A DNA stretch of 43,559 nt. Origin: Martelella mediterranea. Its GTDB lineage: Bacteria > Pseudomonadota > Alphaproteobacteria > Rhizobiales > Rhizobiaceae. The stretch is taken from positions 1-43,559 of the forward strand of contig PVUG01000024.1 of the NCBI GenBank assembly GCA_003001975.1, given 5' to 3'. The notes below the pieces were generated by a model, which was given only the letters and a program-made list of their open reading frames with translations, did not search any database and was not told where the DNA came from. The position numbers and the translations under genes are program-made. Positions 9,523-28,863 of the stretch are shown here, in pieces (positions within the stretch are counted from its first letter, which is position 1; every line of letters starts with the position of its first letter).

Positions 9523-10284
9523 CTAGATACTACGTTCAATCTTGCGGGCGGCGTCCCTCAGCAGGTAACGGTAGCGGTCAATGTCGGCCTGTTCCGTGCG
9601 GAAGCTCGGCGCGACGATGTTCAGGCAGGCAAGCGCTGTTCCGTCGAAACCGCAAACCGGAACGGATATCGCGACCAGTTGGTCGCTGACTTCCCCGTGA
9701 CTGACGCAATAGCCATTTGCCCGGATTTTCCTGAGCTCCTGAAACAGCCTTTCCTTCTTGGTGATCGTGTTTGCGGTAAAGCGCGTAAAGCTCTCCGGCA
9801 ACAGCGAATCCCAGCTTTCTTCGGGCAGAAACGCCAGGATTGTCTTGCTTGAGCCGGCATAGAGCGGCCTTCGCTTGCCGATATGGGCATGGACCCTGAG
9901 ATCGCGCGATGGCTCAGCCTTGGCAATGCACAGCGTCTCGGCATTGAGCCGGATACGCAGCTGCACGGTTTCATTGGCCTTGAGCGCAAGCTGGTCGAGC
10001 ACAGGCTCCGCGCGTTTTACAAGGTCGACCTGGGTCGAGGCAGCGCTGCCCAGCACCAGCATGGCCGTGCCGAGCCGATAGCCGCCTTTTTCCGACTTCT
10101 GAAGCAAACTGCGCCGTTCCATTGTCCGTAACGATCGCAATATTCGAGGTTTACTTTCTCCCAGTCTTCGCGCGGTCTCGCTCAGGGTGATATCGGCCGA
10201 TCCGGCAATTTCGATCAGGATCGAAATTGCCAGGTCAACTGACTGTATATAATCACTATTATTGATATTTTCCGCTCTCTCCAA
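9523..10284 (-). CDS. IclR-family regulator, operon A
   Basis: The product has 253 residues. An N-terminal winged helix-turn-helix (SVDLAISILIEIAGSADITL, then TARRLGESKPRILRSLRTME, about residues 14-55) is followed by the IclR effector domain with RPLYAGSSKTILAFL and NGYCVSHGEVSDQLVAISVP, both hallmark segments. The start is a TTG at 10284, chosen because GGCGGAG lies about 8 bp upstream and no in-frame ATG exists before the HTH. It is transcribed divergently from the peptide transporter operon beginning at 10478, the usual arrangement for a regulator responding to the transported or degraded compound. It is clearly paralogous to the IclR gene at 18652-19452. Confidence 0.92.
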   Translation of the reverse strand: MERAENINNSDYIQSVDLAISILIEIAGSADITLSETARRLGESKPRILRSLRTMERRSLLQKSEKGGYRLGTAMLVLGSAASTQVDLVKRAEPVLDQLALKANETVQLRIRLNAETLCIAKAEPSRDLRVHAHIGKRRPLYAGSSKTILAFLPEESWDSLLPESFTRFTANTITKKERLFQELRKIRANGYCVSHGEVSDQLVAISVPVCGFDGTALACLNIVAPSFRTEQADIDRYRYLLRDAARKIERSI

Positions 10285-10330
10285 AATGTTCTCCGCCCAT
10301 TCGCTCGAGGTTCCAGAAACTGCAGCCTAT

Positions 10331-10396
10331 GTCGTTACGTTAGGCGTTACAATGAAAAAATTGTCTTGACTTTGCATAATTTGCCACAAGAAAATT
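10331..10396 (+). promoter_or_regulatory. Possible control region between IclR and operon A
   Basis: CGTTAC occurs twice (10333-10338 and 10345-10350), 12 bp apart, on one face of the helix. A TTGACT (10366-10371) may be a -35 box, but the -10 (AAAATT, 10391-10396) is poor, consistent with an activated promoter. The assignment is tentative. Confidence 0.3.
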
Positions 10397-10477
10397 ACCT
10401 CACATTCGCCGCCAAAGATGCCGCTCGCGGATCGCAAAAACCAAGAGCGAATGGGCAACAACAAAGAGGAGAACACA

Positions 10478-12067
10478 ATGACCCTGCGCCTTACCCGACG
10501 CGCGCTCCACAAATCCGTTCTGGCCATGGCGTTTGCTGCGGCCCTGCCCCTCGGCGCTCACGCCCAGGAGAACGGATTGCTGGTACTCGGCATGTCGACG
10601 ACGCCGACGACGCTCGATCCGCACGAAGACAGCAGCGCCCCCAACAACGCGATGTCGCGCCATATCTTCGACAGCCTGATCAATCGCGGCGGGGCGGCGG
10701 AAAACATGCCGCAACTAGCGACGAGCTGGAGGGTGATCGACCCGACACACTGGGAATTCAAGCTGCGCGAAGGCGTGACCTTCCATGACGGTTCCGATTT
10801 CGACGCCGAAGACGTTACCGCCTCTCTGCTTCGCGCCCGCGACAAGCCGAGCCAGAGCTTCGCATCCTATACCCGCACCATCAAGGACGTGACGGCCACC
10901 GATCCGCTGACGATCGTGGTCGAGACCACCGTTCCCGATCCGATGATCCTCAATTCCCTGAGCCGCATCAGGATCATCAGTTCCGACTACGCCGACGCAA
11001 GCGTCGAGGATTTCGACAATGGCACGGCAGCAGTCGGGACCGGCCCATTCAAGTTTGCCGGCTACACGCCAGGCGACCGTCTCGAACTCGTTCGCAATGA
11101 CGAATACTTCGAGGAGCCTGCCGACTGGTCAAAGGTGACCCTGCGCTTCGTGCCTGATGACGGCGCCCGCCTCGCCGGCCTGCTTTCCGGCGACATTGAC
11201 CTGATCGAGACCCTGCCCGGCGAAGGCGCAGACCGCGTCGAAAGCAATGATAATCTCGATATCATCCGCGGCCAGTCCACCCGTCTCGTCTATCTCGGCA
11301 CGGACCAGGAAAGTGACGTGACGCCGTTTGCGACGGCGAAGGACGGTTCGCCCCTTTCGTCGAATCCGTTCAAGGATGAGCGCGTGCGCAAGGCGCTTCT
11401 GATGGCGATCAATCGAGAGGCGATCGTCGACCGCGTCATGCAGAAGAACGGAACCCGCGCCGACCAGTTCGTCGCTGAAGGCTATCTCGGCTATTCGGAC
11501 AAGGTCGAGCCGGTCAACTACGATCCGGAAGGCGCCAAGGCCCTTCTGGCGGAAGCCGGCTATCCCGACGGCTTCAAGCTGACAGTCCACGGTCCGTCCG
11601 GGCGCTATGTCGGTGACAGCGAGGTCCTGCAGGCCGTGGGCCAGATGTTCGCCCGCATCGGCGTTGACACCCAGGTCGAGGTCATGCCCTGGTCGATGTA
11701 TGCCGACCGTTATGCCGCGGGTGACTTCAGCCTTTTCCTTGCCTCATGGGGCGTAAACACCGGGGAGGTCTCCAATCCGGCAACCGCCCTGGTCGCAACG
11801 CGCGATGCCGAAAAGGGAACGGGACGCTACAATGGCGGCGGCGTCAGCGTTCCCGCACTCGATGCCCTGGTCGACGAAGCCAGCCGGACGCTTGACGAGA
11901 ATGAGCGCAGGCCGATCCTCGAGGAGGTTTCGGAGATCACGTTCAACGAATATCTGATCCTTCCGATGCATTTCGAAAATGTCGTGCTGGGCGCGTGCAA
12001 GGGGATCGAATACACGCCGCGCGGCGACAAATATACGCTCGCCTACGACGTGAAGTCCGACGAATAA
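10478..12067 (+). CDS. Peptide-type ABC transporter substrate-binding protein, operon A
   Basis: The product has 529 residues and belongs to SBP family 5 (DppA/OppA/GsiB group). A signal peptide MTLRLTRRALHKSVLAMAFA, with an R-R pair and cleavage after A-H-A-Q near residue 30, sends it to the periplasm. Family motifs include TTPTTLDPHEDSS, WEFKLREGVTFHDGSDFDAE, VGTGPFKF and YLGYSDKVEPVNYDPEGAKA. The ATG at 10478 follows AGAGGAG; upstream in-frame ATGs at 10418 and 10451 lack such a site. It delivers oligopeptides or related amide compounds to the permeases encoded from 14630. Between them lie two hydrolase genes, an unusual order that links uptake to cleavage. A paralogue is at 21440. Confidence 0.93.
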   Translation: MTLRLTRRALHKSVLAMAFAAALPLGAHAQENGLLVLGMSTTPTTLDPHEDSSAPNNAMSRHIFDSLINRGGAAENMPQLATSWRVIDPTHWEFKLREGVTFHDGSDFDAEDVTASLLRARDKPSQSFASYTRTIKDVTATDPLTIVVETTVPDPMILNSLSRIRIISSDYADASVEDFDNGTAAVGTGPFKFAGYTPGDRLELVRNDEYFEEPADWSKVTLRFVPDDGARLAGLLSGDIDLIETLPGEGADRVESNDNLDIIRGQSTRLVYLGTDQESDVTPFATAKDGSPLSSNPFKDERVRKALLMAINREAIVDRVMQKNGTRADQFVAEGYLGYSDKVEPVNYDPEGAKALLAEAGYPDGFKLTVHGPSGRYVGDSEVLQAVGQMFARIGVDTQVEVMPWSMYADRYAAGDFSLFLASWGVNTGEVSNPATALVATRDAEKGTGRYNGGGVSVPALDALVDEASRTLDENERRPILEEVSEITFNEYLILPMHFENVVLGACKGIEYTPRGDKYTLAYDVKSDE

Positions 12068-12085
12068 CCACCGCATTTGACGAAA

Positions 12086-12111
12086 GGCGGTCGCGACGCT
12101 CCGCGACCGCC
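12086..12111 (+). other. Intercistronic stem-loop after the binding-protein gene
   Basis: GGCGGTCGCG (12086-12095) and CGCGACCGCC (12102-12111) form a perfect 10-bp stem with a six-base loop, followed by GCAAATTTT. It could partly terminate transcription or protect the upstream message, raising binding-protein yield over the downstream genes. Confidence 0.6.
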
Positions 12112-12133: not shown

Positions 12134-12988
12134 ATGAAAGAACTCGGTGACACCGCTGCGCGCGCGCGCGCGGCGGCGATCTACGACTATGGCGCGACCG
12201 CGATATTCGCGTCCCGTTTCGACCCCCGCCTGCACATGCTCCTCTATGTTCCGAAGGCTGCTGCACAAGGTCGCAAGCTCAACCTGATCGTCGCCGTCCA
12301 CGGTACGGGTCGCACCTCGGCGATCGAATTCCGCGACGGTTTCGCCGAATTCTGCGAGTATAACGATTGCGCCATCCTGTGTCCGATCTTCCCCATGAAC
12401 GTTCAGGGAGACAGCGCGCGTTCGGGCTACAAATACATCATCGAAGGCGACCTGCGCTATGATCTGGCGATCCTGTCCATGGTCGAGGAAATGGCCGGCA
12501 AATACGGCCAGGACTGGTCGCGGTTCGCCATGTTCGGCTTTTCCGGCGGCGGACACTTCACCCACCGCTTTGCCATTCTCCACCCCGAGAAGCTCTGGGC
12601 CGCCTCCATCGGCGCACCTGGTTCGGTGACGCTTCTCGATCCCGAACGAGACTGGTGGGTTGGAATCCGCAATGTCGAGGCCGTGTTCGGCAAGCCGTTC
12701 GACGTGGCGGCGCTGGCGCGGGTGCCTGTGCAGATGGTTGTCGGGGACGCCGACCTCGAGACCTGGGAAATCACCCACAAACCGGGTGGGCGTTATTACA
12801 TGGAAGGCGCGAACGACGCCGGAAAAACAAGGCCGGAACGGCTGAAATCACTGGCGAAATCATTCGAAAACGCCGGCGTCGACGTCACGCTCGACATCGT
12901 TCCGGGGATATCCCATGACCGGATGAAGGTCCTCGGCCACGTGAAAGGCTTTTTCAGGAACCAGCTTGAAAAGATCGAGGCCCAATGA
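12134..12988 (+). CDS. Alpha/beta-hydrolase, cytoplasmic, operon A
   Basis: The 284-residue protein has the alpha/beta-hydrolase layout: LIVAVHGTGR as the oxyanion-hole strand (about residue 51-60), nucleophile elbow GFSGGG with Ser137, a late acidic residue in VVGDADLE, and a catalytic-histidine candidate in the GISHD motif near residue 258. It resembles the esterase/PHB-depolymerase-like group rather than proline iminopeptidases. No signal peptide is visible, so it should act on imported substrate. The ATG at 12134 is preceded by CCGGAGAAAAAAC. Its stop overlaps the next gene's start (ATGA), indicating coupled translation with the gamma-glutamyltransferase-like enzyme. The natural substrate (ester, lactone or amide) is unknown. 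Confidence 0.85.
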   Translation: MKELGDTAARARAAAIYDYGATAIFASRFDPRLHMLLYVPKAAAQGRKLNLIVAVHGTGRTSAIEFRDGFAEFCEYNDCAILCPIFPMNVQGDSARSGYKYIIEGDLRYDLAILSMVEEMAGKYGQDWSRFAMFGFSGGGHFTHRFAILHPEKLWAASIGAPGSVTLLDPERDWWVGIRNVEAVFGKPFDVAALARVPVQMVVGDADLETWEITHKPGGRYYMEGANDAGKTRPERLKSLAKSFENAGVDVTLDIVPGISHDRMKVLGHVKGFFRNQLEKIEAQ

Positions 12989-14607
12989 GCAATGCAACGA
13001 TTTGCGCGCCGCAGCCCGAGGCCGTGGAAGCCGGCGCGCGCATTCTCGAACAAGGCGGCAACGCGGTTGATGCTGCGCTCGCCTGCGCCTTCACGCAAGG
13101 CGTCGTCGATCCTCAGATGGCAGGCATTGGCGGGTTCGGCTCCATGCATGTCTTCATGCCGGAACGCGGCATTCACGAGATTCTCGAATTTTACGCCCGT
13201 GCGCCGCTGGCCGCCACGCCGGACATGTGGGTCGACAAGGTCAGGGGCCAGAGCCGCGACGGCTTCGGCTATATCCTCGACGGCAACATCTCCGATATCG
13301 GCTATCACGCCGTCTGCACGCCCGGATCGCTGAAGGGATATGAAGAGGCGCTCAGGCGTTACGGCACGTTCGACTGGGCAGACCTGATCGCCCCGGCCAT
13401 CCGCTATGCGCGCGAGGGCTTCAATATCCGCAACCACATGCACTGGTACTGGACCAAAAACCAGTCTGGCGACGGTTTCGCCAATACGCTCGACAAGCTG
13501 AAGCTGACGGAGAGCGGACGAAAAATCTACTTTCACGGCGATGGCCGCCTGCGCGCGGTCGGCGAGCGTCTCGTCAACACCGATCTGGCCGATACGCTGG
13601 AGCTGATCGCCCGAAGCGGAGACGCCGATATCTTCTATCACGGCGAACTAGCGGAGCGAATCGCCGAGGATTTCGCCGCTCATGGCGGGCTGATCGGCAT
13701 GGATGACCTTGCCGCCTACACGCTTCAGAATGTTGCGCCTGCGTGGGGCAGCTATCGCGGACGGCGCATCGCCTCCTCTCCGCCGCCCGGTTCCGGGGTG
13801 TCGGTGATCGAGCTGTTGCAGATTCTCGAGCATTTCGACATCGCCGGCATGGATCATGCAGGCACGCCCCATGTCACGTTGCTGTTCGAAGCGATGAAAC
13901 GGATGACCCTCGACAAGGACACCTTCATGGGTGATCCGCAATATGTCGACGTCCCGGTCGACACGCTGCTTTCGCAAGAACGCGCAGCAATGCACGCGGC
14001 CTCCATCCGGGCAGGAGAGCGGGCCGATGTCAAGCGCCTGGATATGTCGCAGCGCGATACGACGCATGTTTCCGTCGTCGACAGCAAGGGCAATGCCGTG
14101 GCCATGACGCACACGCTCGGGAGCCCTTCCGGCGTCATCACCGACGGTCTCGGCTTCATGTACAACGGCACGATGAGCCGCTTCACGCCGTTCCCCGGAC
14201 ACCCCGGGTCGATCGCGCCGGGCAAGCGGCGCCCGAGTTCGGCTGCGCCGACAATCGTCTTCGAGGATGGCCGTGCGCGCATCGTCGTCGGGGCGCCGGG
14301 CGGCAGCTATATCGCGCCGACGGTGGCCCAGCTGATCATGAACATGATCGATTTCGACATGAGCGTTCTGGAAGCCGTCGTCGCTCCGCGCGTCGTCGGC
14401 GTGTCCAACACGATCGATATCTGCAACCGCATCCGCAGGTCGGTCGAAACAGACCTGATCGCCGACGGCTATGCGGTGGAGCGCTCGCCACAGGCCTACG
14501 CCTTCGCCGCCCTGCACGCAATCAGCGTCGGCCCGGATCAGGTATCGACAGGGGCGGCGGATCCGCAAAGGGACGGCATGTCGCTTTCGGTTCGCGTGCC
14601 GCAGTGA
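12985..14607 (+). CDS. Gamma-glutamyltransferase-family enzyme without signal peptide
   Basis: The product has 540 residues, an Ntn-hydrolase of the GGT family. The autocleavage/nucleophile motif DTTHVSVVD puts the catalytic Thr at 359, giving a large chain of about 358 and a small chain of about 182 residues. KRRPSSAAPTIV (the S-S pair) and GAPGGSYI are conserved. Unlike secreted GGTs there is no signal sequence. The arginine that binds the glutamate carboxylate in E. coli GGT (in the F-R-E-M-A-P motif) is replaced by Tyr70 (F-Y-A-R-A-P), and the Q-x-x-D segment binding the amino group appears replaced (YNGTMSRF). Similar changes occur in GGT-like acylases, so a different acyl group is likely cleaved. 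Start ATG overlaps the hydrolase stop. Confidence 0.88.
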   Translation: MSNATICAPQPEAVEAGARILEQGGNAVDAALACAFTQGVVDPQMAGIGGFGSMHVFMPERGIHEILEFYARAPLAATPDMWVDKVRGQSRDGFGYILDGNISDIGYHAVCTPGSLKGYEEALRRYGTFDWADLIAPAIRYAREGFNIRNHMHWYWTKNQSGDGFANTLDKLKLTESGRKIYFHGDGRLRAVGERLVNTDLADTLELIARSGDADIFYHGELAERIAEDFAAHGGLIGMDDLAAYTLQNVAPAWGSYRGRRIASSPPPGSGVSVIELLQILEHFDIAGMDHAGTPHVTLLFEAMKRMTLDKDTFMGDPQYVDVPVDTLLSQERAAMHAASIRAGERADVKRLDMSQRDTTHVSVVDSKGNAVAMTHTLGSPSGVITDGLGFMYNGTMSRFTPFPGHPGSIAPGKRRPSSAAPTIVFEDGRARIVVGAPGGSYIAPTVAQLIMNMIDFDMSVLEAVVAPRVVGVSNTIDICNRIRRSVETDLIADGYAVERSPQAYAFAALHAISVGPDQVSTGAADPQRDGMSLSVRVPQ

Positions 14608-14629: not shown

Positions 14630-15604
14630 ATGGCAACGTCGCTGATCCGAAGGCTGATACAGGCGCTGTTCGTCATCATCGCGATGACGATCATCGTCTT
14701 CATCGGCGTCAACGTCATCGGCAATCCGGTCGACATTCTGATCAATCCGGATGCAAACCAGGCCGAGCGGGCGCGCGTTATCGCCTTTTACGGGCTCGAC
14801 AAGCCTTTGTGGGAACAATACCTCCTGTTCCTGAGGGGGCTGATTCACGGTGATTTCGGCAACAGTTTCGTCTACGGACGACCGGCGTTGGCGATCATTC
14901 TCCAGCGCCTGCCGGCAACGCTGGAACTCGCCTTCAGCGCGCTGATCATCGCGATCGTCATCGGCATTCCACTCGGTCTTTATGCCGGGCTCTATCCGGA
15001 CCGGGCCTCCTCCCACTTCATCATGTCGGGCTCCATCCTCGGCTTTTCCCTGCCGACCTTCTGGGTCGGGCTGATGTTGATCATGCTGTTTTCGGTCGAT
15101 CTCGGCTGGCTGCCATCCAACGGGCGCGGCGAAACCGCCCCGCTCTTCGGAATCCAATGGTCGTTTCTGACCCTGGATGGTCTGAAGCATCTGATCCTGC
15201 CGGCCATCAATCTGGCACTGTTCAAGACCTCGATGGTCATGCGCCTGACGCGGGCGGGCGTTCAGGAAGTGCTGCCACAGGACTATGTCAAGTTCGCGCG
15301 CGCCAAGGGATTGCGCGAGCGCCGGATCGTGTTCGTCCATGTGCTGAAAAACCTGATGATACCGGTTGTCACCATCATCGGACTGGAATTCGGATCCCTG
15401 ATCGCCTTTTCGGTGGTCACCGAAAGCATTTTCGCCTGGCCCGGCATGGGAAGGCTGATCATCGAGAGCATCAACCTGCTCGACCGTCCGGTGATCGTCG
15501 CCTACCTGATGATGATGGTGCTCCTGTTCGTGACCATCAATTTCCTCACCGACATCTGTTACATGCTGCTCGATCCGCGCATCCGCCTCGACAAGAAAGG
15601 GTGA
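14630..15604 (+). CDS. Peptide ABC transporter permease, DppB type, operon A
   Basis: The product has 324 residues and about six membrane helices, with the DppB/OppB hallmarks IVFIGVNVIGNPVDILI near the N-terminus, the HGDFGNSFVYGRP segment, and the coupling motif QDYVKFARAKGLRERRIVFV that contacts the ATPases. The ATG at 14630 has GGGAAGGAGG upstream. It lies 22 bp after the GGT-like gene and 3 bp before the second permease gene. It is very similar along its whole length to the permease at 23138 (shared runs such as GSILGFSLPTFWVG), evidence for duplication of the transporter. Confidence 0.93.
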   Translation: MATSLIRRLIQALFVIIAMTIIVFIGVNVIGNPVDILINPDANQAERARVIAFYGLDKPLWEQYLLFLRGLIHGDFGNSFVYGRPALAIILQRLPATLELAFSALIIAIVIGIPLGLYAGLYPDRASSHFIMSGSILGFSLPTFWVGLMLIMLFSVDLGWLPSNGRGETAPLFGIQWSFLTLDGLKHLILPAINLALFKTSMVMRLTRAGVQEVLPQDYVKFARAKGLRERRIVFVHVLKNLMIPVVTIIGLEFGSLIAFSVVTESIFAWPGMGRLIIESINLLDRPVIVAYLMMMVLLFVTINFLTDICYMLLDPRIRLDKKG

Positions 15605-15607: not shown

Positions 15608-16531
15608 ATGACAGACACACCAGTTGAGAGCGTTCTGTCCTCGGAACAGCCGGAATCCATCAGGGCGTTGCGGCGGCGCAGGGTTCTTGCCTTTTTCGCC
15701 TCGCCGGGTGCAGCGATCAGCTTCGTCACGCTCGCGGTTATTGCGCTGATTGCGATTTTCGCCCCCGTTCTGGCGCCGCAAAACCCCTACGACCTGTCCC
15801 AGCTCGATATCCTCGACGGACGGTTGCCGCCGGGATCGGAATCGATGACCGGAATGCATTATTGGCTCGGCACGGACGGTCAGGGGCGCGATATTCTGTC
15901 GGGGATTTTCTACGGACTCAGGACATCCCTGACCGTCGGCCTGCTGTCGGCGTTCGCCGCAGCGCTGATCGGCACGACCATCGGCCTCATCGCCGCCTAT
16001 ATCGGCGGCCGCACGGAAACGCTGCTGATGCGGCTCGTCGATCTCCAGCTTTCCTTCCCCACCATACTCATGGCGCTGATGCTGCTGGCGGTTCTCGGCA
16101 AGGGAGTCATGAACGTGGTCATAGCACTGATCATCGCGGAGTGGGCAACTTACGCCAGAACTGTGCGCAGCACGGCTCTGGTCGAGCGCGAGAAGGAATA
16201 TATCGAGGCCGCCCGCAACCTCAACCTGCCGGGTTGGCGGATACTGTTCCGGCACCTGCTGCCAAACTGTCTGGCGCCGGTCATCGTCATCGCCACAATG
16301 CAGGTCGCCCGCGCCATCAGCCTGGAAGCGACGCTTTCCTTCCTAGGGCTCGGCGCCTCGGTAACCCAGCCCTCCCTCGGCATGCTGATCGCCAACGGCT
16401 ACAAGTATCTCCTGAGCGGCAACTACTGGATCAGTTTCTTTCCCGGCATCGCATTGCTGATCACGATCGTCGCCATCAATCTCGTCGGCGACCGGTTGCG
16501 CGATGTCCTGAACCCGAGGAATGCGCGATGA
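15608..16531 (+). CDS. Peptide ABC transporter permease, DppC type, operon A
   Basis: The product has 307 residues. The N-terminal DppC segment is followed by VLAPQNPYDLSQLDILDG, the GTDGQGRDILSGIFYG motif diagnostic of DppC/OppC proteins, and the coupling helix EYIEAARNLNLPGWRILFRH. About six membrane segments are evident. It pairs with the DppB-type permease encoded just upstream to form the channel. Its stop overlaps the ATG of the first ATPase gene (ATGA), so the four transport genes are translated in series. It is paralogous to 24115-25041. Confidence 0.93.
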   Translation: MTDTPVESVLSSEQPESIRALRRRRVLAFFASPGAAISFVTLAVIALIAIFAPVLAPQNPYDLSQLDILDGRLPPGSESMTGMHYWLGTDGQGRDILSGIFYGLRTSLTVGLLSAFAAALIGTTIGLIAAYIGGRTETLLMRLVDLQLSFPTILMALMLLAVLGKGVMNVVIALIIAEWATYARTVRSTALVEREKEYIEAARNLNLPGWRILFRHLLPNCLAPVIVIATMQVARAISLEATLSFLGLGASVTQPSLGMLIANGYKYLLSGNYWISFFPGIALLITIVAINLVGDRLRDVLNPRNAR

Positions 16532-17511
16532 CACCGATCCTCGACGTTCGCAATCTGGTGACAGAATTCGCCACGCAGCCGGGAAATCCCGCTCTGAAAG
16601 CTGTCGACGATGTCAGCTTTGCCTTGAACAGGGGGGAAATACTGGGGCTGGTCGGGGAATCCGGTTCGGGGAAATCCGTTACGGGTTTCTCGATCATGGG
16701 ACTGGTCGACCCGCCCGGTCGCGTCAGCCAGGGCCAGGTTCTCTTCGAGGGCCGAGACCTGACCGGCCTTGGCCCTGCGGACATGCGCGATCTGCGGGGG
16801 CGGCGGATCGCCATGGTCTTTCAGGACCCGATGATGACACTCAACCCGGTCCTGCGCGTGGGAACCCAGCTCACAGAAACCCTTCATGCGCACGAGCAAC
16901 TTTCCCGTCGCGAGGCGTGGTCGCGCGCCCGCGATGCACTGGCCATGGTCGGCATTCCGAGCCCGGAAGAGCGGATGAACGCCTATCCGCATCAGTTTTC
17001 CGGCGGGATGCGGCAGCGCGTGGCCATCGCCATCGCCATTTTGCACAAGCCGGACCTCATCATCGCCGACGAGCCGACGACAGCGCTCGACGTGACCATT
17101 CAGGCGCAGGTCATCCACGAGTTCCAGCGCCTGGCGGAGACCGCCAATACCGCCGTCATCTGGATCACCCACGACCTGGCGATCGTGTCGCGGCTGGCCG
17201 ACAGGATCGCGGTCATGTATGGCGGCAGGCTCGTTGAAAGCGGTCCCGTGGCCGACATTCTGACCCGGCCCCGTCACCCCTACACGAAAGGCCTGATCGG
17301 TTCCGTTCCCAGCCAGAATTCCAGAGGCCAGCGCCTGATGCAGATCCCGGGCATGACGCCCGGTCTCGGCCGGCTTCCCGCCGGCTGCGCCTTCCAGGCA
17401 CGGTGCGCCCGTGCCGATGCGCTGTGTCGGGTCCAGCCGGAGCTATCGATCGAAGGAGAGCGTGGCTATCGCTGCTTTCACCCCATCGCCGAACAGGTTG
17501 CCGGAGCATGA
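16528..17511 (+). CDS. Peptide ABC transporter ATPase, DppD type, operon A
   Basis: The product has 327 residues and one ABC domain: Walker A GESGSGKS (about residue 42), Q-loop VFQDPMMTLNP, signature QFSGGMRQR (about 156), Walker [13 protein letters not shown] (about 181) and switch histidine in WITHDLA. The C-terminal oligopeptide/dipeptide extension with spaced cysteines (C-A-F-Q-A-R-C-A, then L-C and R-C-F) matches the [4Fe-4S]-associated tail known from DppD/OppD. The start at 16528 lies within the previous stop; the long in-frame extension upstream is out-of-frame permease sequence. It works as a heterodimer with the DppF-type ATPase encoded next. Confidence 0.93.
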   Translation: MTPILDVRNLVTEFATQPGNPALKAVDDVSFALNRGEILGLVGESGSGKSVTGFSIMGLVDPPGRVSQGQVLFEGRDLTGLGPADMRDLRGRRIAMVFQDPMMTLNPVLRVGTQLTETLHAHEQLSRREAWSRARDALAMVGIPSPEERMNAYPHQFSGGMRQRVAIAIAILHKPDLIIADEPTTALDVTIQAQVIHEFQRLAETANTAVIWITHDLAIVSRLADRIAVMYGGRLVESGPVADILTRPRHPYTKGLIGSVPSQNSRGQRLMQIPGMTPGLGRLPAGCAFQARCARADALCRVQPELSIEGERGYRCFHPIAEQVAGA

Positions 17512-19668: not shown

Positions 19669-21378
19669 ATGATGATGGGCGAGCATGCGGCTGTGAAATT
19701 GATGTCGGAACCGGACGGCGCAGTCCTCGGCGATCTGAAGAATGCCGTCAGCGGCGTACGCATGATGGAAACGCTGGATCATCTGGCGCGCTTCACCAAA
19801 CTGGCCGGAACGCCGTCCGAGCGCGAGAGCCTGGAAGGGCTTCGTTCACAACTCGCGAATATCGGCTTCGAGACCTCCGTGCTGGAGCACGACGCCTATA
19901 TCAGCCTTCCCGGCAAGGCCAGCCTGCAGATCGCCTCCGCCGCCTACGCCTGCATCACCCATTCGATGGGGATATCCTCCCCCGCCGACGGCCTCACGGC
20001 CGATCTGGTGGACCTGCCCTCCGGCCGGGCGGATGACCTGCCGGACAGCGGGGTCGCCGGAAAGGTCGTCGTCATCGACGGCATCGCCTCGCCGGACGTG
20101 ACGCGGCGTATGACGGCGCTCGGCGTCGCCGGCATCATCCATGTCAGCCCTCACGAGCATATTCACGAGATGTGCATCTCGCCTGTCTGGGGGAGCCCGT
20201 CGATGCAGACGATGAAGGACCTGCCGGCCTGCGTTGTCATATCCGTCTCGGCGACGACGGGCCTCTCTATCCGCGAGCAGATGAGCAAGGGCGCGCAACG
20301 GGCGCTGATCCACGCCGAGGTGGATACCGGCTGGCGCAAGACGCCACTGCTCGTCGCGGAGATGGCTGCGGACGAACCAGCCGAAGAAGCACCGTTCGTG
20401 CTGTTCTCCGGGCATCACGATACCTGGTACTACGGCGTCATGGACAACGGCTCGGCCAACGCCTGCATGATCGAGGTGGCGCGCCTTGCCGTTTCGCAGC
20501 GCGCTCACTGGCGGCGTTCCCTGCGGATCTGCATCTGGTCCGGTCACTCCCAGGGCCGTTATTCCGGTTCCGCCTGGTACGTGGACCAGAACTGGGCCGA
20601 CTTCGACCGGCGATGCGTTGCCCATGTCAATATCGACAGTCCCGGAGGCATCGGCGCGGGAAATCTGAAAAATACCGGGGTCATGCGTTCATTGCGGCCG
20701 CTCGCCGCCAGAGCAATCGCTCAGGAAACCGGGCAGGTTCTTGCCGGCAAGCCAAAAGTCCGCTCGGCCGATGAATCGCTTCAGGGGATCGGCATTCCAT
20801 CCATGTTCGGTTCCCTCAGCGGCCAGTTTCCCGACCCTGAAAGCAAGATGCGAAATGCGCTTGGCTGGTGGTGGCATACGCCCGACGACCTGATCGACAA
20901 GATCGACGAGGCCAATCTCGTGCGCGATGCCAGGATCGTCCTTGAATGCGTGTGGCGGCTGTTGAGTGAGGAGGTGCTTCCCATCGACATTTTCGCGCCG
21001 CTTGAAGGCTTGCGTTCGGCGCTGCTCCCGCTTCAGGAAAAACTCGACGCCAATTTCGACCTCGGCATGCTGTTCGCGCGCATTGATGCGGCTTCGGACC
21101 GCCTTCGCGCCCTTCAGGAAAATAGCGCGCCGCCATCGATCAACAGCGCCATCATGCGCGCCTCGCGTGAACTCGTGCTGCTCGAGCACAGCCGCGGAGA
21201 CCGGTTTGTCCACGAGCCGGCGCTCGCCCTGCCCGCATGGCCGGTTCTGGAGCCGCTGCGGATCCTGTCCGAAGCGGCGCCCGGAACAGATAGCTTCCAT
21301 TTTGCAATGGTCGACGCCGTCCGCGCGCGCAATCGCATCGCCTGGCACCTCGAACGGGCCGCCGCCTGCATGGCGTAA
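19669..21378 (+). CDS. M28-type (Zn) peptidase-like protein, operon B
   Basis: The product is 569 residues from ATG 19669 (three successive ATGs; TGGAGTGCAGGA precedes). The N-terminal part is followed by a PA-like insert (about residues 95-200, GVAGKVVVIDGIAS) and an M28 core: SGHHDTWYYGVMDNGSANA (His250, Asp251; Asp260 area), NIDSPG (Asp323) and WWHTPDD (His403), which are expected zinc ligands. The usual Glu-Glu pair in W-x-x-E-E is replaced: WSGHSQGRYSGS has His293-Ser294 there. So one ligand and the general base differ, and the reaction may not be classical aminopeptidase hydrolysis. No signal peptide is seen. First gene of operon B, controlled by the divergent IclR. Ends with an about 150-residue helical C-terminal domain. 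Confidence 0.85.
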   Translation: MMMGEHAAVKLMSEPDGAVLGDLKNAVSGVRMMETLDHLARFTKLAGTPSERESLEGLRSQLANIGFETSVLEHDAYISLPGKASLQIASAAYACITHSMGISSPADGLTADLVDLPSGRADDLPDSGVAGKVVVIDGIASPDVTRRMTALGVAGIIHVSPHEHIHEMCISPVWGSPSMQTMKDLPACVVISVSATTGLSIREQMSKGAQRALIHAEVDTGWRKTPLLVAEMAADEPAEEAPFVLFSGHHDTWYYGVMDNGSANACMIEVARLAVSQRAHWRRSLRICIWSGHSQGRYSGSAWYVDQNWADFDRRCVAHVNIDSPGGIGAGNLKNTGVMRSLRPLAARAIAQETGQVLAGKPKVRSADESLQGIGIPSMFGSLSGQFPDPESKMRNALGWWWHTPDDLIDKIDEANLVRDARIVLECVWRLLSEEVLPIDIFAPLEGLRSALLPLQEKLDANFDLGMLFARIDAASDRLRALQENSAPPSINSAIMRASRELVLLEHSRGDRFVHEPALALPAWPVLEPLRILSEAAPGTDSFHFAMVDAVRARNRIAWHLERAAACMA

Positions 21379-21439: not shown

Positions 21440-22999
21440 ATGAAACCGAAAACAGCCCTACTCACAATATTGATCGCAGGTCTGATGGCTGGCGCGGCAA
21501 CCGCCAAGGATCTGGTCATCGGCATGAAAGCGGCGGTCGACAACGCCGACCCTCATCAGCTCTACACGCCCAATCGCAACGTGGATCTTCAGGTCTACGA
21601 GCCGCTGGTTTATCAGGACCGCTTTCTGAAGCCGGTCCCCTGGCTGGCGACGTCGTGGGAACCCCTCGACGACACGACCTGGGAATTCAAACTTCGCGAG
21701 GACGTCAAGTTTTCCGACGGCACGCCGTTTACGGCAGAGGACGTGGTCTTCTCTCTCAATCGCGGCATAACGATCAAGGGATTGCGCACCTATGTCGGAT
21801 ATCTCAAGGATATAGCCTCGGTTGAGGCCAAGGACGACCACACGGTCGTCATAAAGACCAAGATGCCGACGTCGATGTTGCCATGGAATCTCACCTCCAT
21901 CGGCATGGTCTCGGCCAAAGCCTCCAGGGATGCGACCGAAGAGGACTTCAACGGCGGCAGCGCCGCCATCGGCACTGGTCCTTACCGCTGGATAAAATGG
22001 ACGCCCGGCGACAGCGTTGTTCTGGAGAAGAATCCGGATTACTGGAATGGGGTCGAGCCGTGGGACAAGGTCACCTACCGGTTCATTCCCGACGACAGCA
22101 CCCGGGTTGCGGGCCTGCTTGCCGGCGATGTCGATGTCATCGATCAGGTTCCCGGCAACCTTACCAGGCAGATTGCCGACAGCGGCAAGACCAGCCTCGT
22201 TGAGGACACGTCAGTCTTCAACGTGTATCTTTCCTTCGACAGCGCCAGGGCCAATTCTCCCTTCATCAAGGCCAATGACGGTTCGGACCTCAAGGAAAAC
22301 CCGTTTTCCAACCCTGACGTCCGTGAGGCGGTGAACATCGCGATCAACCGCACGGGCCTTGCCGAACGCATCATGAATGGCGCGGCGGTTCCCACTGGCC
22401 AGCTCGCGCCCGAAGGCATGCAGGGCTATGTGCAATCGCTGGGCGTTCCCGAATACGATCCCGCGAAAGCTAAGGAACTGCTCGCCAGGGCCGGATATCC
22501 TGACGGGTTCCGCATGACAATCCATTGCTACAACAACCGTTTCACCGGTGATGTCCAGACCTGCCAGGCGGTTGCGGCCATGCTTACCGCGATCGGGATC
22601 AAGACAAACGTGGACGCCATGCCCACCTCGGTCTTCTTCAAGCGCGCGCGCGCGAACGAATTCTCCTTCTTCATGATCATGTACGGCACGCCGACCGGCA
22701 GCACGACCAGCATGGTGACGACGGTGCTTCAGACCGTCGACAAGGAAAATGGCTATGGCGCAAACAACAATAACTTCTATTCGAACCCCGAGGTCGACGC
22801 GCTCATCGTGGAATCGCAGAGCACGTTCGACGATGCCGACAGTGAAGAACTGCTGAAGGAGGCGACCGCGGCGGCGATCAACGACCAGGCGCTGCTGCCG
22901 CTGTTCTTCCTGAAGTCGAGCTGGGGCGTGCGCAAGGGACTGGAGCTTGAACCGCGCGGCGACGGCTTCACCATGGCGCGCAACATTCGCGAGAAGTAG
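21440..22999 (+). CDS. Peptide-type ABC transporter substrate-binding protein, operon B
   Basis: The product has 519 residues. A clear signal peptide, MKPKTALLTILIAGLMAGAA with cleavage near T-A-K at residue 22-23, precedes an SBP family 5 fold: DNADPHQLYTPNRNVDLQVY, WEFKLREDVKFSDGTPFTAE, IGTGPYRWIKWTPGDSV and YVQSLGVPEYDPAKAKELL. The ATG at 21440 follows AAAAAGGGGAAC. It differs from the operon A binding protein in the ligand-facing N-terminal region, so the two systems likely import related but different molecules. It sits 61 bp after the M28 gene. Confidence 0.93.
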   Translation: MKPKTALLTILIAGLMAGAATAKDLVIGMKAAVDNADPHQLYTPNRNVDLQVYEPLVYQDRFLKPVPWLATSWEPLDDTTWEFKLREDVKFSDGTPFTAEDVVFSLNRGITIKGLRTYVGYLKDIASVEAKDDHTVVIKTKMPTSMLPWNLTSIGMVSAKASRDATEEDFNGGSAAIGTGPYRWIKWTPGDSVVLEKNPDYWNGVEPWDKVTYRFIPDDSTRVAGLLAGDVDVIDQVPGNLTRQIADSGKTSLVEDTSVFNVYLSFDSARANSPFIKANDGSDLKENPFSNPDVREAVNIAINRTGLAERIMNGAAVPTGQLAPEGMQGYVQSLGVPEYDPAKAKELLARAGYPDGFRMTIHCYNNRFTGDVQTCQAVAAMLTAIGIKTNVDAMPTSVFFKRARANEFSFFMIMYGTPTGSTTSMVTTVLQTVDKENGYGANNNNFYSNPEVDALIVESQSTFDDADSEELLKEATAAAINDQALLPLFFLKSSWGVRKGLELEPRGDGFTMARNIREK

Positions 23000-23137: not shown

Positions 23138-24118
23138 ATGGCCCTTTGGCTCGGCAGGCGGTTTTTCCAGGCTGCGCTCGTCATTCTCGCCATGACGGTA
23201 ATCGTCTTCATTGGCGTCAACGTGATCGGCAATCCGGTCGATATTCTCATTCCGCCGGATGCGACCCAGGCGGAACGGTTGCGGCTGATCCAGTCACTCG
23301 GGCTCGATCAACCGCTTTACAGCCAGTATTTCGACTTCCTGAAAAATGCGCTGCACGGAGATCTCGGCAACAGCTACGTCTACAATCGACCGGCTCTCCA
23401 GATCATTCTCGAGCGTATGCCCGCAACATTCGAACTGGCAATGAGCGCCATGGTGATATCCGTGGCCATCGGCATCCCGCTGGGTCTTTACGCCGGGCTT
23501 CGGCCCGACAGCCTGTCCGCCAAGACGCTGATGGCGGGAAGCATTCTCGGGTTTTCCCTGCCCACCTTCTGGGTTGGCATCATCCTGATCATGGTTTTCG
23601 CGGTCCAGCTCGGTTGGCTTCCCGCCAGCGGCCGCGGGGAAACCGTGGAAATATTCGGCGTCGGCTGGTCGTTTCTCACCGTTGACGGCCTGCGCCATCT
23701 GCTTCTTCCGGCAGTCAACCTGTCGTTGTTCAAGACGGCGCTGGTGATGCGGCTGACCCGCGCCGGCGTGCAGGAAACGCTCCCGCAGGACTATATCCGC
23801 TACGCCCGCGCCCGCGGCCTGAACGAGCGTCGCGTCGTTGCCGTGCATGTGCTGAAGAACATCATGATCCCCGTCATCACGATCCTCGGCCTCGAATTCG
23901 GCTCGATCATCGCGTTTTCGGTCGTGACGGAAAGCATCTTCGCCTGGCCGGGAACGGGCAAGCTCATCGTCGACAGCATCAATGTTCTCGATCGGCCGAT
24001 CATCATCTCCTACCTGATCATGATCGTCATCGTGTTTACCATCATCAATCTTGCGGTCGATCTGACCTACACACTTCTTGACCCGCGCGTGAGGCTTAGC
24101 ATGAAGGGAGGCGCATGA
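23138..24118 (+). CDS. Peptide ABC transporter permease, DppB type, operon B
   Basis: The product has 326 residues and about six membrane helices. It is co-linear with the operon A DppB protein: VIVFIGVNVIGNPVDILI, HGDLGNSYVYNRPA, SILGFSLPTFWVGIILIM, and the coupling motif QDYIRYARARGLNERRVV. The ATG at 23138 follows TTTAAGGTAAACGC (modest ribosome site). Its TGA overlaps the next start (ATGATG at 24115). It forms the channel for the solute captured by the protein encoded at 21440. Confidence 0.93.
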   Translation: MALWLGRRFFQAALVILAMTVIVFIGVNVIGNPVDILIPPDATQAERLRLIQSLGLDQPLYSQYFDFLKNALHGDLGNSYVYNRPALQIILERMPATFELAMSAMVISVAIGIPLGLYAGLRPDSLSAKTLMAGSILGFSLPTFWVGIILIMVFAVQLGWLPASGRGETVEIFGVGWSFLTVDGLRHLLLPAVNLSLFKTALVMRLTRAGVQETLPQDYIRYARARGLNERRVVAVHVLKNIMIPVITILGLEFGSIIAFSVVTESIFAWPGTGKLIVDSINVLDRPIIISYLIMIVIVFTIINLAVDLTYTLLDPRVRLSMKGGA

Positions 24119-25041
24119 TGACCGATCTTTACGAACCGGATATCGAACCCGTTCAGCTCGTTGCCACGGAGAGGCCGGGCAAGCGCCTCCTGCGCGACTT
24201 CTTGAAATCGAAGATCGCGGTCGGCGCGCTGGCCGTTCTCGTCCTGATCATTCTGGCGGCCATATTCGCGCCGCTGATCGTGCCGCAGAACCCTTATGAT
24301 CTTCTGCAACTCAACATCATGGATGGCCTGATGCCGCCCGGCACAACTGCTGCCAACGGCGAATACGCCTATCTGCTCGGATCTGACGATCAGGGACGCG
24401 ACATGCTGTCGGCCATTCTTTACGGCCTGCGCATCTCGCTGACGGTCGGCGTCGCCTCCGCTTTCGTCGCGGCGATGATCGGCGCCTCGCTCGGCCTGCT
24501 TGCCGCCTATGTCGGCGGCCGGACCGAAAATATCATCATGCGTCTGGTCGACCTGCAGCTCTCCTTTCCGTCGATGCTCGTGGCATTGATGATCCTCGCC
24601 TTTCTGGGCAAGGGCGTCGGGAACGTGGTGCTGGCGCTAATCATCGTGGAATGGGCGACCTATGCCCGCACGGCGCGCGGCACGGCGCTGGTGGAAAGCC
24701 GGCGCGAATATATCGAGGCCGCATCCTGCCTCGGCGTACCGTCCTATCGGATTGTCTTCCGCCATCTGCTGCCGAACTGCCTGCCGCCGCTGGTCGTGAT
24801 CGCAACGGTCCAGATCGCGCGCGCAATCGCGCTGGAGGCGACCCTGTCGTTTCTCGGCCTCGGCGTTCCCGTGACCGAACCGAGCCTCGGCCTGCTGATC
24901 GCCAACGGCTACAAATACATCCTGTCCGGCCAATACTGGGTGAGCATTTATCCCGGCGTCGCGCTTCTGGTGACCATCGTCGCCATCAACCTCGTCGGCG
25001 ATCACCTTCGTGACATCTTCAATCCGAAAGGACACGGATAA
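24115..25041 (+). CDS. Peptide ABC transporter permease, DppC type, operon B
   Basis: The product has 308 residues. It contains the DppC-type motif [20 protein letters not shown] (about residue 87), six membrane segments and the coupling helix [20 protein letters not shown]. Two adjacent ATGs (24115, 24118) follow AAGGGAGG; the first overlaps the upstream stop. The stop shares a base with the ATG of the fused ATPase gene (TAATG). It is paralogous to 15608-16531 including near-identical runs such as TLSFLGLG. Confidence 0.93.
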
Positions 25042-26867
25042 TGGCTGTTCTTGCTTCGCAGACTAGGCCTGCCCCCCTGATTTCCGTCAAGGGGCTTGAG
25101 GCATCGTTTCTTGTCAACGGGGCCTGGAGCCAGGTGGTCAGGAATATATCCTTCGATATCGGACGCGGGGAAACCGTCGCCGTGGTAGGCGAATCCGGCT
25201 CCGGAAAAAGCGTGACCGCAATGTCGATCATGCGCCTTTTACCGAAGGCGACCAGCCGGGTTCATGGCGTCGTGGATTTCGAGGGGCGCGACCTGCTCGC
25301 GCTCCCGGATGACAGGATGCGCGCGATTCGAGGCAACCAGATTGCCATGATCTTCCAGGAAACCAGCCTCAATCCGGTCTATACGATCGGCTTTCATATG
25401 ATAGAGACCCTGCGCCAGCACCGCAATATCTCGCGGGAAGAAGCCAGGAAAGAGGCCATCGCCCTTCTCGACAGGGTTCGCATCCCGTCAGCCGAAAAAC
25501 GCCTCTCCGACTACGCGCACCAATTTTCGGGCGGCATGCGTCAGCGCGTGATGATCGCCATCGCGCTCGCCTGCAGGCCCAAGCTTCTCATCGCAGATGA
25601 ACCGACCACCGCGCTCGATGTCACGATCCAGGCCCAGATCCTCAACCTCATCAAGGAATTGCAGGACGAGGTCGGGATGTCGGTCATGTTCATAACGCAT
25701 GACATGGGCGTGGTGGCGGAAATATCGGACCGGACCGTGGTGATGTATCGCGGCGATGCCGTTGAAACCGGAACAACGCCGCAGATCTTCCGCGCGGCTG
25801 AGCATCCCTATACCAGGGCGCTGCTGTCGGCGGTCCCGCATCTGGGCGCGATGAAATCACAGGCCCTGCCGATGCGTTTTCCCGTTGTCAGCAAGACCAC
25901 CGGGGAGGCGGCGCCGATACCCGAAACGCCCGATACGGTCGACAAATTGGACAAACCTCTCCTGAGCGTGAAGAATCTTGTCAAGCGATTCGACATCCAC
26001 GACGGTCCGCTGGGCGGCCTGACCGGGCGGGTCCATGCCGTGGAAAACGTCTCCTTCGATATCAGAAGCGGCGAAACCCTCTCGCTCGTCGGCGAATCCG
26101 GGTGCGGCAAGTCGACAACCGGACGGTCTATCCTGCGTCTGACCGAACCGACATCCGGCTCTGTGATCATGGACGACACGGACATGGCCAGGCTCGGCCG
26201 GACGCAGTTGCGCGCCATGCGCAAAAGTGTCCAGATGATCTTTCAGGATCCGGCGACCAGCCTGAACGCGCGCATGACGATTGGCGATGCCATCGCCGAA
26301 CCGTTTCTCGTCCACGGGCTCGGGACGCGGCGGCAGGCGCGCGAAAAGGCGGCCGACCTTCTGGTTCGCGTCGGCCTCAAGGCGGACATGGCGCATCGAT
26401 ATCCGCATGAATTCTCGGGCGGCCAGCGTCAGCGCATCAGCATCGCGCGCGCCCTCATTCTCGACCCGCGTCTGATCGTGGCGGACGAGTCGGTGTCGGC
26501 TCTCGATGTGTCGGTGAAGGCGCAGGTCGTCAATCTTCTCCTCGATCTTCAGCAGAGCATGGGGCTTTCCTATCTCTTCATCTCGCACGACATGGCCGTC
26601 GTCGAGCGCGTCAGCCATCGCGTGGCGGTAATGTATCTCGGGGAGATCGTTGAAATCGGGCCGCGGGCCGCCATCTTCGAAAACCCGCAGCATCCCTACA
26701 CGAAGAAGCTGATTGCAGCCGTACCGGTTGCCGACCCTGAGCGGCGCAAGATCCGTGTCGGCGGCGATGTCGAGGAACTGAAGAGCCCGGTCAGGCCCGT
26801 GGATTTCGTGACGCCCGAGCGCCATTACGACGAAACGGAGCCGGATCACTTCGTCCGCAGGGAATAG
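25041..26867 (+). CDS. Fused DppD-DppF double ATPase, operon B
   Basis: The product has 608 residues and contains two complete ABC domains in one chain. Domain 1: [43 protein letters not shown] proline/threonine-rich linker (about residues 285-305, [12 protein letters not shown]) leads to domain 2: [61 protein letters not shown]. Both domains look catalytically intact. In operon A the same functions are two separate genes, so a fusion (or fission) event separates the paralogous operons; GsiA-type fused ATPases are known. The central cysteine tail of DppD is absent here, in line with the fusion. Confidence 0.93.
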
Positions 26868-26943
26868 GCCGGACGTCATGTCGGCCTATGCCGAAAACCG
26901 GTTCTCACAATGACTATGCAACTCTCTCCCGCGCGGAAACAGC

Positions 26944-28863
26944 ATGACTGAAACAACTGACCACTTCGAAACCATCGCCGACGGCGTGGTGCTCCAGCGC
27001 AACGTCATGGTGCCTGCGCGAGACGGCATCCGCCTTGCGACCGACATCTACAGACCTGCCCGCAACGGCGTTGCCCTGACCGGGGCGTTTCCGGTCATTC
27101 TGGAGCGCACGCCTTACGACAAGGCAGGCACGCCGCGGACGGAATTCAGCCGACACGATCCCACACCCATGACCCGGGCCGGGCTGGCCATCTATTTCGT
27201 CCGGCGCGGTTATGTCGTCATCTGGCAGGATTGCAGGGGCCGCTTCGCTTCCGAGGGACATTTCACCAAATATCTTTCCGAAGGCGAGGACGGCTACGAT
27301 GCGATGGAATGGATCGCCGCCCAATCCTGGTGCAATGGCCGCATCGGCACCATGGGCCTTTCCTATGCAGCCCACACGCAGATGGCCATGGCCTGCCTCA
27401 ACCCTCCGGGTCTTGCGTGCATGGTGGTCGATTCAGGGGGCTTTTCCAACGCCTATTCCTGCGGCATACGCCAGGGCGGCGCCTTTGAGCTGAAACAGGC
27501 CACCTGGGCCTATAACCGCGCATCGGAGGGCGTGGCGCCTGAAATCGCGGCGGCGGTGAAAGCCGAAAGCCTGCACGACTGGTTCACGCGGATGCCCTGG
27601 TCCCGAAACCGGTCTCCGATCCGCTGGAATGGCGAATACGAGGACTATCTGCTGGAACAGTGGCAGCACGGCACGTTCGACGACTTCTGGAAGAAGGTCG
27701 GGCTTTACGCCGAGGGCTACCGCGAAACCTTCCCCAAAATACCGATCGCGTTCATGTCGAGCTGGCTGGACGTCTATGTGCCGTCGACATTGGATAACTA
27801 TACCGGCCTGAAGGCCCAGGGCGCGTCCTCTCTCGCGCTTGTCATGGGGCCGTGGACGCATGGCAACCGGTCGCAGACGGTTTTCGGCGACGTTGATTTC
27901 GGCCCCCGCGCCACCTTTGACGAGAATGTCGCGCCGAGCTGGCTGGCCTACCGCACATCCTGGTTCGACCGCTGGCTGAAAGATAGTGCCGGCGGCAACG
28001 AAGAGGATAATGCCAGGCCCGTGCAGGTTTTCATCATGGGCGGGGGCACTGGAGGCAAGACCGAAGAAGGGCATCTGGACCATGGCGGGCACTGGATCGA
28101 GGCCGACGAGTGGCCGTTGCCCGAGACCAGTGAACGCGTACTCTATCTCAACGCCGACATGTCGCTTGCGCCGGCGGCGGGGGCGCAATCCGCAATCACC
28201 TATGATTTCGATCCGTCAGACCCCGTGCCCACCATCGGCGGCGCGCTGACATCGGGAGAGCCGATCTTTTCCGGCGGCGGTTTTGATCAGGTCGAGGCCT
28301 CCGATTTCTACGGATGCAAGAAGCCGGGACTGCCGTTGAGCGCGCGGCTCGACGTGCTCAGCTTCGAGACCGAAACGCTCACGGAAGACCTGACAGTCGC
28401 CGGCCCGATCGAAGTGTCTCTGTGGGTTTCCTCCGATGCGGCCGATACCGATTTCACGGCCAAGCTCATCGACGTCTACCCGCCGAGCCGCGATTATCCG
28501 CGCGGCTATGCCCTGAATATCACTGACGGGATTTTCAGGTGCCGCTACCGCAACGGCTTTGAGAACCCGCAGCCTATCGCCAAGGAAGAAATGTTCAGGG
28601 TTTCGATCACGCCCTTTGCGACCGCCAATCTGTTCCGGAAAGGCCACCGCCTGCGTCTGGACATCTCCTCCTCCAATTTCCCCAAATTCGACGTCAATCC
28701 CAATGTCTTTGCGCCCGAGGGAACGAGCAGGAGCAGGCGCGTAGCGAGAAACACCGTCTTTCTCGGCACGCCTCCGGTCGCAGAACAGCATGGAGAACAG
28801 CGCCCCTCCTTGCTGAAATTGACTGTCATTGGTGGAAAAGCGAAGCCGTCGGCGACGGCTTAG
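26944..28863 (+). CDS. CocE/NonD-family hydrolase, operon B
   Basis: The product has 639 residues. The N-terminal alpha/beta-hydrolase domain of the S15/CocE group contains RRGYVVIWQDCRGRFASEG and the nucleophile elbow TMGLSYAAHT with Ser140; MGPWTHGNR carries the catalytic histidine candidate. The C-terminal jelly-roll domain typical of X-Pro dipeptidyl peptidases and cocaine esterase follows (GPIEVSLWVSSDAADTDFTA, KGHRLRLDISSSNFPKFDVN). Known activities include X-Pro dipeptidyl peptidase, cocaine esterase, glutaryl-7-ACA acylase and alpha-amino-acid ester hydrolase. No signal peptide is seen. It lies 76 bp after the fused ATPase gene with a weak ribosome site (GCGGAAACAGC). It is probably the last gene of operon B and acts on imported acyl-amide or ester compounds. 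Confidence 0.9.
   Translation: MTETTDHFETIADGVVLQRNVMVPARDGIRLATDIYRPARNGVALTGAFPVILERTPYDKAGTPRTEFSRHDPTPMTRAGLAIYFVRRGYVVIWQDCRGRFASEGHFTKYLSEGEDGYDAMEWIAAQSWCNGRIGTMGLSYAAHTQMAMACLNPPGLACMVVDSGGFSNAYSCGIRQGGAFELKQATWAYNRASEGVAPEIAAAVKAESLHDWFTRMPWSRNRSPIRWNGEYEDYLLEQWQHGTFDDFWKKVGLYAEGYRETFPKIPIAFMSSWLDVYVPSTLDNYTGLKAQGASSLALVMGPWTHGNRSQTVFGDVDFGPRATFDENVAPSWLAYRTSWFDRWLKDSAGGNEEDNARPVQVFIMGGGTGGKTEEGHLDHGGHWIEADEWPLPETSERVLYLNADMSLAPAAGAQSAITYDFDPSDPVPTIGGALTSGEPIFSGGGFDQVEASDFYGCKKPGLPLSARLDVLSFETETLTEDLTVAGPIEVSLWVSSDAADTDFTAKLIDVYPPSRDYPRGYALNITDGIFRCRYRNGFENPQPIAKEEMFRVSITPFATANLFRKGHRLRLDISSSNFPKFDVNPNVFAPEGTSRSRRVARNTVFLGTPPVAEQHGEQRPSLLKLTVIGGKAKPSATA

Follow-up and report, generated by a model that had tools for sequence, protein, structure and literature searches.

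We analysed a window of 43,559 nt from Martelella mediterranea (contig PVUG01000024.1, from a genome of 4.63 Mb in 46 contigs), in which two Dpp-type import operons occupy positions 9523-28863, operon A ending at 18551 and operon B at 28863. On balance we favour the view that they represent one modular catabolic system in two versions standing side by side, with matched cassettes of a solute-binding protein (SBP) and enzymes arranged around a conserved permease core. Operon A has the order IclR (divergent), SBP, alpha/beta hydrolase (abH_A), GGT-like, DppB, DppC, DppD and DppF, and operon B the order IclR (divergent), M28-like, SBP, DppB, DppC, fused DppDF and CocE/NonD (CocE_B); there are several overlaps of a few bases between genes, as is usual in operons. 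The initial annotation had described two adjacent IclR/SBP/Dpp modules with four different hydrolases, and those genes were in place with families matching in Pfam and NCBIfam, DppF_A and the permeases being placed by homology instead of a Pfam scan. Its account of the modules needed correction in the ATPases (separate DppD and DppF in A, fused DppDF in B), in the gene order, which differs between the operons, and in two start positions, which were shifted.

The four enzymes were found together in one gene run, on a plasmid of Terrarubrum flagellatum (NZ_CP091854), ordered IclR-M28-SBP_B-SBP_A-abH-GGT-DppB-C-D-F-CocE. Like the window, this run contains the four hydrolases, both SBP types, IclR and Dpp genes; unlike the window, it is one operon with one transporter and separate DppD and DppF. 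Identities to the window proteins were 53% (M28), 52% (SBP_B), 52% (SBP_A), 68% (abH), 64% (GGT) and 60-61% (CocE). Since the same four enzymes are combined there with a single importer, they probably serve one kind of food molecule. We also surveyed the best 80 of 244 confirmed CocE_B loci, counting DppB and DppC where both were at least 50% identical and on the same strand, and the permease pair was present at 63 of the 80. SBP_A-abH-GGT occurred at 4 of these 63 loci, all from Mesorhizobium, and M28 with an SBP of the B type (lineage SBP-b below) at one, Bosea OK403; Bosea psychrotolerans carries IclR-M28-CocE without permeases. The earlier idea that the enzymes belong to one set is thus supported by all four in Terrarubrum, three at the four Mesorhizobium loci and two at the two Bosea loci.

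A number of results weigh against this reading. Among the 63 permease-bearing CocE loci, 58 showed neither M28 nor abH nor GGT at 40% identity or above, and 17 of the 80 CocE loci lacked the permease pair, 8 of them flanked by at least 9 kb on both sides and the other 9 by less than 9 kb on one side or both. Other relatives of M28_B (46-51%) adjoin an M20 peptidase and in most cases a transporter of the His type, and several abH relatives below 50% identity adjoin other Dpp transporters. Related permeases in congeners also serve nucleoside-hydrolase and M32-peptidase operons, so that the substrate cannot be read from the permease clade. The grouping of operon B with Bosea in the permease tree has a support of only 80/84, and a long-branched congener operon (L150), which belongs to the same thirteen-row permease clade, was left out of the enzyme survey. 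Together with 30 DppB-type matches in the genome (3 of them weak and partial), SBPs that are only 38% identical, and ATPases and enzymes that differ, the enzyme-poor CocE operons and the breadth of the permease clade would suit two unrelated peptide importers that are neighbours by chance and take up unrelated substrates. We consider that explanation rather unlikely, given that a single Terrarubrum operon unites the enzymes and SBPs that A and B have separately and that abH and GGT join CocE at the four Mesorhizobium loci.

Ancestry was followed in a permease tree of 60 rows, made after dropping listed near-duplicate loci, and then in a careful 29-row tree of DppB+DppC. In the latter, operon A (DppB_A, 14630-15604; DppC_A, 15608-16531; both + strand) formed a clade of six rows, at 100/100, together with the operons of Rhizobium and Shinella and further ones of the A type. 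Operon B (DppB_B, 23138-24118; DppC_B, 24115-25041; both +, assigned by homology and by the tree) joined Bosea sp. OK403, and the two were placed within a seven-row fork, at 88/86, with Terrarubrum, Mesorhizobium and L150. The A-side and B-side rows, thirteen in all, formed one clade at 100/99. The approximately unbiased (AU) test rejected A and B as one clade at a cost of 81 log units (p 5e-68, under the model used and with long branches as a caveat).

The SBP, CocE and IclR trees were quick trees, and the supports given for them are to be read as such. In the SBP tree (31 rows, identity at least 33%, length over 430), one lineage, SBP-a, occurs in operons with abH and GGT, a second, SBP-b, in M28 operons (window B, Terrarubrum and Bosea OK403; support 100), and a third, SBP-c, in CocE operons and also in Bosea OK403, whose second SBP belongs to it, so that in this tree SBP lineages appear to track the enzymes. 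SBP_A (10478-12067, +; SBP_bac_5 297 bits) belongs to SBP-a and SBP_B (21440-22999, +; SBP_bac_5) to SBP-b. The window CocE grouped with CocE operons of Brucellaceae, Devosia and Rhodobacterales (100), and those of Terrarubrum and Mesorhizobium with Aminobacter and other Devosia CocE (98), which suggests that CocE joined such operons more than once; the Terrarubrum CocE was missing from the first CocE tree, probably owing to a filter on X, and was included in the later tree and survey. In the IclR tree, which was made without the window's own locus (L009), IclR_A belonged to a seven-row A-type set (99) with IclR_B outside it. Operon B is thus a mosaic.

The initial annotation had taken the two operons for a duplicated system. 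If one operon had been duplicated in tandem, locally and within this lineage, and its enzymes replaced afterwards, this would explain why the operons are adjacent and in the same orientation, and why the DppB (69%; next 42%), SBP (38%; next 30%) and IclR (43%; next 27%) of A are the best-scoring paralogues of those of B in the genome. Identity between A and B was 69.1% for DppB, 65.0% for DppC, which was compared between A and B only and not genome-wide, 41.8% for IclR, 37.7% for SBP and 43.9% for each of the ATPases. The permease tree and AU test part A from B, however, as do the SBP and IclR trees, and the ATPases differ in origin; we therefore regard tandem duplication as highly improbable and see in A and B two separately descended versions of one system, standing side by side. 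Two expectations had accompanied the duplication idea, namely that the paired genes be each other's nearest relatives and that the enzymes co-occur elsewhere; the first failed and the second was upheld.

The different origin of the ATPases is seen in the fused DppDF_B (25041-26867, +; two ABC_tran stretches), whose best paralogue in the genome is not an ATPase of operon A, DppD_A (16528-17511, +; ABC_tran and oligo_HPY) or DppF_A (17508-18551, +; 71-72% identical to the ATPase in A-type operons of Rhizobium/Shinella and f28), but one on another contig, C8 (63%), with adjoining permeases only 36-40% like those of the window. A congener also has a nucleoside-hydrolase operon whose ATPase is 66% identical to DppDF_B. 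A congener locus (G408, L141, 8543-16809) holds genes for an SBP, a DHDPS-family protein, two nucleoside hydrolases, DppB and DppC (both permeases related to those of the window, 63-64%) and a fused DppDF, and so places such permeases in an operon of nucleoside type.

Both operons have the composition of a PepT/Dpp-type importer, with a family 5 SBP, two permeases and two oligo_HPY ATPase domains, and in this they share the architecture of E. coli GsiABCD and DppABCDF (PepT family). The window SBPs, unlike these, fit no curated SBP equivalog, as both scored far below every equivalog cut-off compared (DppA, GsiB, NikA etc.). DppDF_B scored 799 bits to GsiA, below its cut-off of 1077; that it passes some other ATPase cut-offs says little, because both halves add to the score.

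The gene order of operon A is conserved on plasmid pRL12 of Rhizobium johnstonii 3841 (357.5-365.7 kb, IclR-SBP-abH-GGT-DppB-C-D-F), on pRL12 of R. leguminosarum A1 and in Shinella sp. WSC3-e, and also on pSymA of Sinorhizobium meliloti R14, where the SBP gene is absent from the feature table. Operon A proteins of the window were 55-84% identical to those of Shinella, R. leguminosarum A1 and the four sampled genome copies. An 8.2-kb Rhizobium copy matched 102 plasmid records, among them R. johnstonii 3841 pRL12, with 75 of the 102 covered over at least 80% of the length. None of the R. johnstonii, R. leguminosarum, Shinella and S. meliloti stretches contains operon B. Directly after operon A, an M20 metallopeptidase gene follows in Shinella (L001, 17617-18813) and in S. 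meliloti (L156, 12181-13377); it is possibly a fifth enzyme of the set.

In a sample of 397 genomes of the order, this genome included, relatives of abH_A (E 1e-30) were present in 18 genomes, of M28_B (1e-60) in 12 and of CocE_B (1e-100) in 7. Apart from this genome, 8 had abH_A at 54% or above; full operon A was present in 4 of them, and 2 more of the 8 had abH (54-55%) and GGT (66-67%) nearby, around another Dpp transporter. Among 12 congeners no GGT_A orthologue was found at E 1e-60, the one match being 34% identical, and SBP_B matches reached only 34-42%; both modules thus look accessory from their occurrence. Operons of the type DppB-C-D-F-SBP-CocE are found in Neorhizobium, Paracoccus, Pseudochrobactrum, Ponticoccus and others, with CocE_B at 58-68% and permeases at about 55-67%; they differ from operon B in having an SBP of the SBP-c lineage and no M28.

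Alphaproteobacteria living in soil or in association with plants have many peptide-type transporters, whose assignment is poor. We considered whether operon A is one of three PepT systems with unknown solute that, in an excerpt of PMC3333776, were induced only in the alfalfa rhizosphere; for two of them, the pRL12 regions guessed from the numbering were not operon A. A literature search with extrapolated pRL12 gene numbers for operon A gave no papers, and excerpts of PMC3687685 and PMC6421345 contained nothing relevant to the role of the gene set.

The GGT-like protein (12985-14607, +; G_glu_transpept 413.6 bits in Pfam) passes the TIGR00066 equivalog cut-off (396.7 against 357.85) and, by alignment, appears to keep the threonine and self-processing site of the N-terminal nucleophile (Ntn) gamma-glutamyltranspeptidases (T03). 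This nucleophile, T359, aligns with residue 1 of mature GGT small chains, and a TTHVSV-like motif was present in 11 of 13 relative rows. None of the residues with which E. coli GGT clamps the gamma-glutamyl group is kept: R114 is replaced by Y70, N411 by G379, Q430 by T396 and D433 by R399, invariantly in 7 sequences including that of the window, and no export signal was recognised by hydropathy. The numbers of Asn411 and Gln430, which we take to be those of the E. coli enzyme, were counted on the alignment. Among the gamma-glutamyl substrates suggested in the initial annotation, a scavenging of glutathione-type compounds by a true gamma-glutamyltransferase would fit the TIGR00066 score and the retained threonine, but with the clamp replaced such substrates are unlikely, and we hold this explanation to be very improbable. 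An excerpt of PMC8062742 confirms, among the four, a role of Arg114 and Asp433 only: R114L and R114D enzymes had no activity, and D433N lost transpeptidation and kept 82% of hydrolysis; R109S of another GGT kept 85% of its activity. Despite its equivalog score, the protein probably acts as an Ntn amidase with a different specificity, and the automatic name gamma-glutamyltransferase is probably wrong here.

The M28-like protein (Pfam Peptidase_M28 54.1 bits, also assigned by alignments and fold search) is encoded on the + strand at 19702-21378 in an open frame from 19603, the start at about 19702 being the more likely one from the starts of its relatives. It keeps the His/Asp/Asp/His metal-ligand frame of the family (H238, D240, D248, D312 and H392), invariant in 7 sequences. 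The catalytic Glu and the adjacent zinc-ligand Glu are replaced in the alignment by His282-Ser283, again invariantly in 7 sequences, so that the Glu pair of Peptidase M28 is lost. His-Ser lies within W-x-G-H-S-x-G-R-Y-x-G-S (residues 279-290), which is retained even in a 30%-identical relative; the motif occurred in 24 of 28 matched rows, a count that includes repeated entries for the same genes as well as distant members. With a predicted model of mean pLDDT (predicted local distance difference test) 62.7, transferrin receptor and glutamate carboxypeptidase II (GCPII) were the best fold matches, in alignments of at least 615 columns including gaps, and, 2ek8 apart, the 50 rows listed had TM scores of 0.60-0.66 of the query and root-mean-square deviations of 7-12 A. 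The enzyme is thus probably, as far as this weak model indicates, of GCPII/transferrin-receptor architecture, the fold search hinting at the apical and helical domains of GCPII; it differs in having His-Ser for the Glu pair, which in GCPII serves as base and zinc ligand. The automatic name M28 peptidase is probably wrong here as well. A literature search on altered M28 sites returned nothing relevant.

CocE_B (26944-28863, +) scored 330 bits to TIGR00976, above the cut-off of 66.3, and shows the Peptidase_S15 and PepX_C domains of CocE/NonD hydrolases together with a GxSYxG-like nucleophile, Asp and His. The corresponding motifs GLSYAA, SWLD and GPWTH were found in 90, 90 and 72 of 91 relative rows, respectively. 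Cocaine esterase was the nearest solved relative (230 bits). abH_A (12134-12988, +; 68% to Terrarubrum) had no Pfam match, reached no NCBIfam family cut-off and gave a poor structure model (pLDDT 46). It has the motifs GFSGGG (the nucleophile motif), GDAD and GISH, candidates for a Ser, Asp, His triad, which were present in 23, 10 and 13 of 24 relative rows, respectively, and it is weakly similar to PHB-depolymerase-type esterases and to poly(Asp) hydrolase-1 (PahZ1). At 39 bits only, the link to PahZ1 was not adopted; PMC4456602, in the part seen, concerns PahZ1 itself and has no direct bearing on abH_A.

As in the initial annotation, none of the four enzymes showed a signal peptide, and both SBPs had signal-like hydrophobic N-termini, as judged by crude hydropathy only; the signal peptide and the starts of relatives make 10478 the more likely start of SBP_A. 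The location of the enzymes bears on another explanation, in which the GGT-like protein and CocE_B are acylases that detoxify or use antibiotic-like amides and esters such as beta-lactams. D433N of GGT gains cephalosporin acylase activity (PMC8062742, same excerpt), and alpha-amino acid ester hydrolases are among the kin of CocE_B, scoring 150 bits or less. CocE_B is nevertheless closer to cocaine esterase than to these, and enzymes that look cytoplasmic and are tied to importers would suit nutrition better than protection, so we give this explanation only a very slight chance.

Under the modular system that we favour, A and B would be PepT/Dpp-type operons for import and hydrolysis, each under IclR control, whose recent ancestry is separate and which are now neighbours in one accessory region. 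The periplasmic SBP would bind a small peptide-like compound, which would be imported intact and then cut in the cytoplasm, in agreement with the order of import and intracellular hydrolysis proposed earlier. Matched SBP and enzyme cassettes would have been exchanged between operons around the permease core, each cassette probably acting on a single variant, or a single bond, within a substrate class common to all. Judging from the enzyme families, this class would most likely be amino acids or short peptides that are N-acylated, esterified or modified in some other way and that serve as a carbon and nitrogen source. We put forward more tentatively, as a possibility that we doubt more than we believe, an undescribed cassette-swapping system in which the four enzymes dismantle one amide- or ester-linked natural-product class, the His-Ser enzyme of GCPII architecture carrying out non-peptidase chemistry and the GGT-fold amidase having a new specificity. 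In line with the earlier statement that no pathway with this gene set was known, we found no description of it in the open-licence literature, a scope that leaves out most subscription journals. With four hydrolase families and three SBP lineages tied to one operon family, proteins of 'function unknown' become a testable set, in which the ligand of any one SBP, once found, makes the others predictable; the set is also a warning about automatic enzyme names.

Each operon has a divergent regulator gene on the - strand, IclR_A (9523-10284; IclR_C 132 bits), which groups with IclR of Rhizobium/Shinella A-type operons, and IclR_B (18652-19446; IclR_C 123.8 bits and HTH_IclR), which is 44-46% identical to the IclR of the Terrarubrum and Mesorhizobium operons. 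A motif search gave a candidate IclR_A operator, GTTACG-N5-CGTTAC, at 10334-10350 (+), between IclR_A and SBP_A, where GTTACGN5CGTWAC has its sole exact match in the window; with 2 mismatches allowed there were 5 window matches, a number reached by 18 of 100 shuffles. TTACGN5CGTWA was found in the IclR-SBP gap of 5 of 8 other A-type loci (L001, L002, L038, L155 and L156), three of which are near relatives, and not in that of L035, L036 and L037. No exact match of the A motif occurs upstream of operon B, which suggests separate control of A and B. An operator common to both IclR proteins was rejected, the two intergenic regions sharing no word of 9 or more bases, and a search for RNA elements gave none at gathering score.

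Upstream of operon A, the window encodes a LacI-type regulator, ribose-type sugar ATP-binding cassette (ABC) genes, recognised by eye, and a 453-aa protein without Pfam match (2556-8886, +). Just downstream of operon B lie a short open reading frame resembling IS3-type OrfA (29047-29235, -) and a pair resembling the ParD/ParE toxin-antitoxin (31750-32357, +), both by the look of their translations. Further on, at 34195-41749 (-), genes for an Arginase-family protein, two permeases, SBP_bac_3, an ATPase, LysR, a DDAH-like protein and an ornithine cyclodeaminase-like protein probably form an arginine or methylarginine catabolic cluster.

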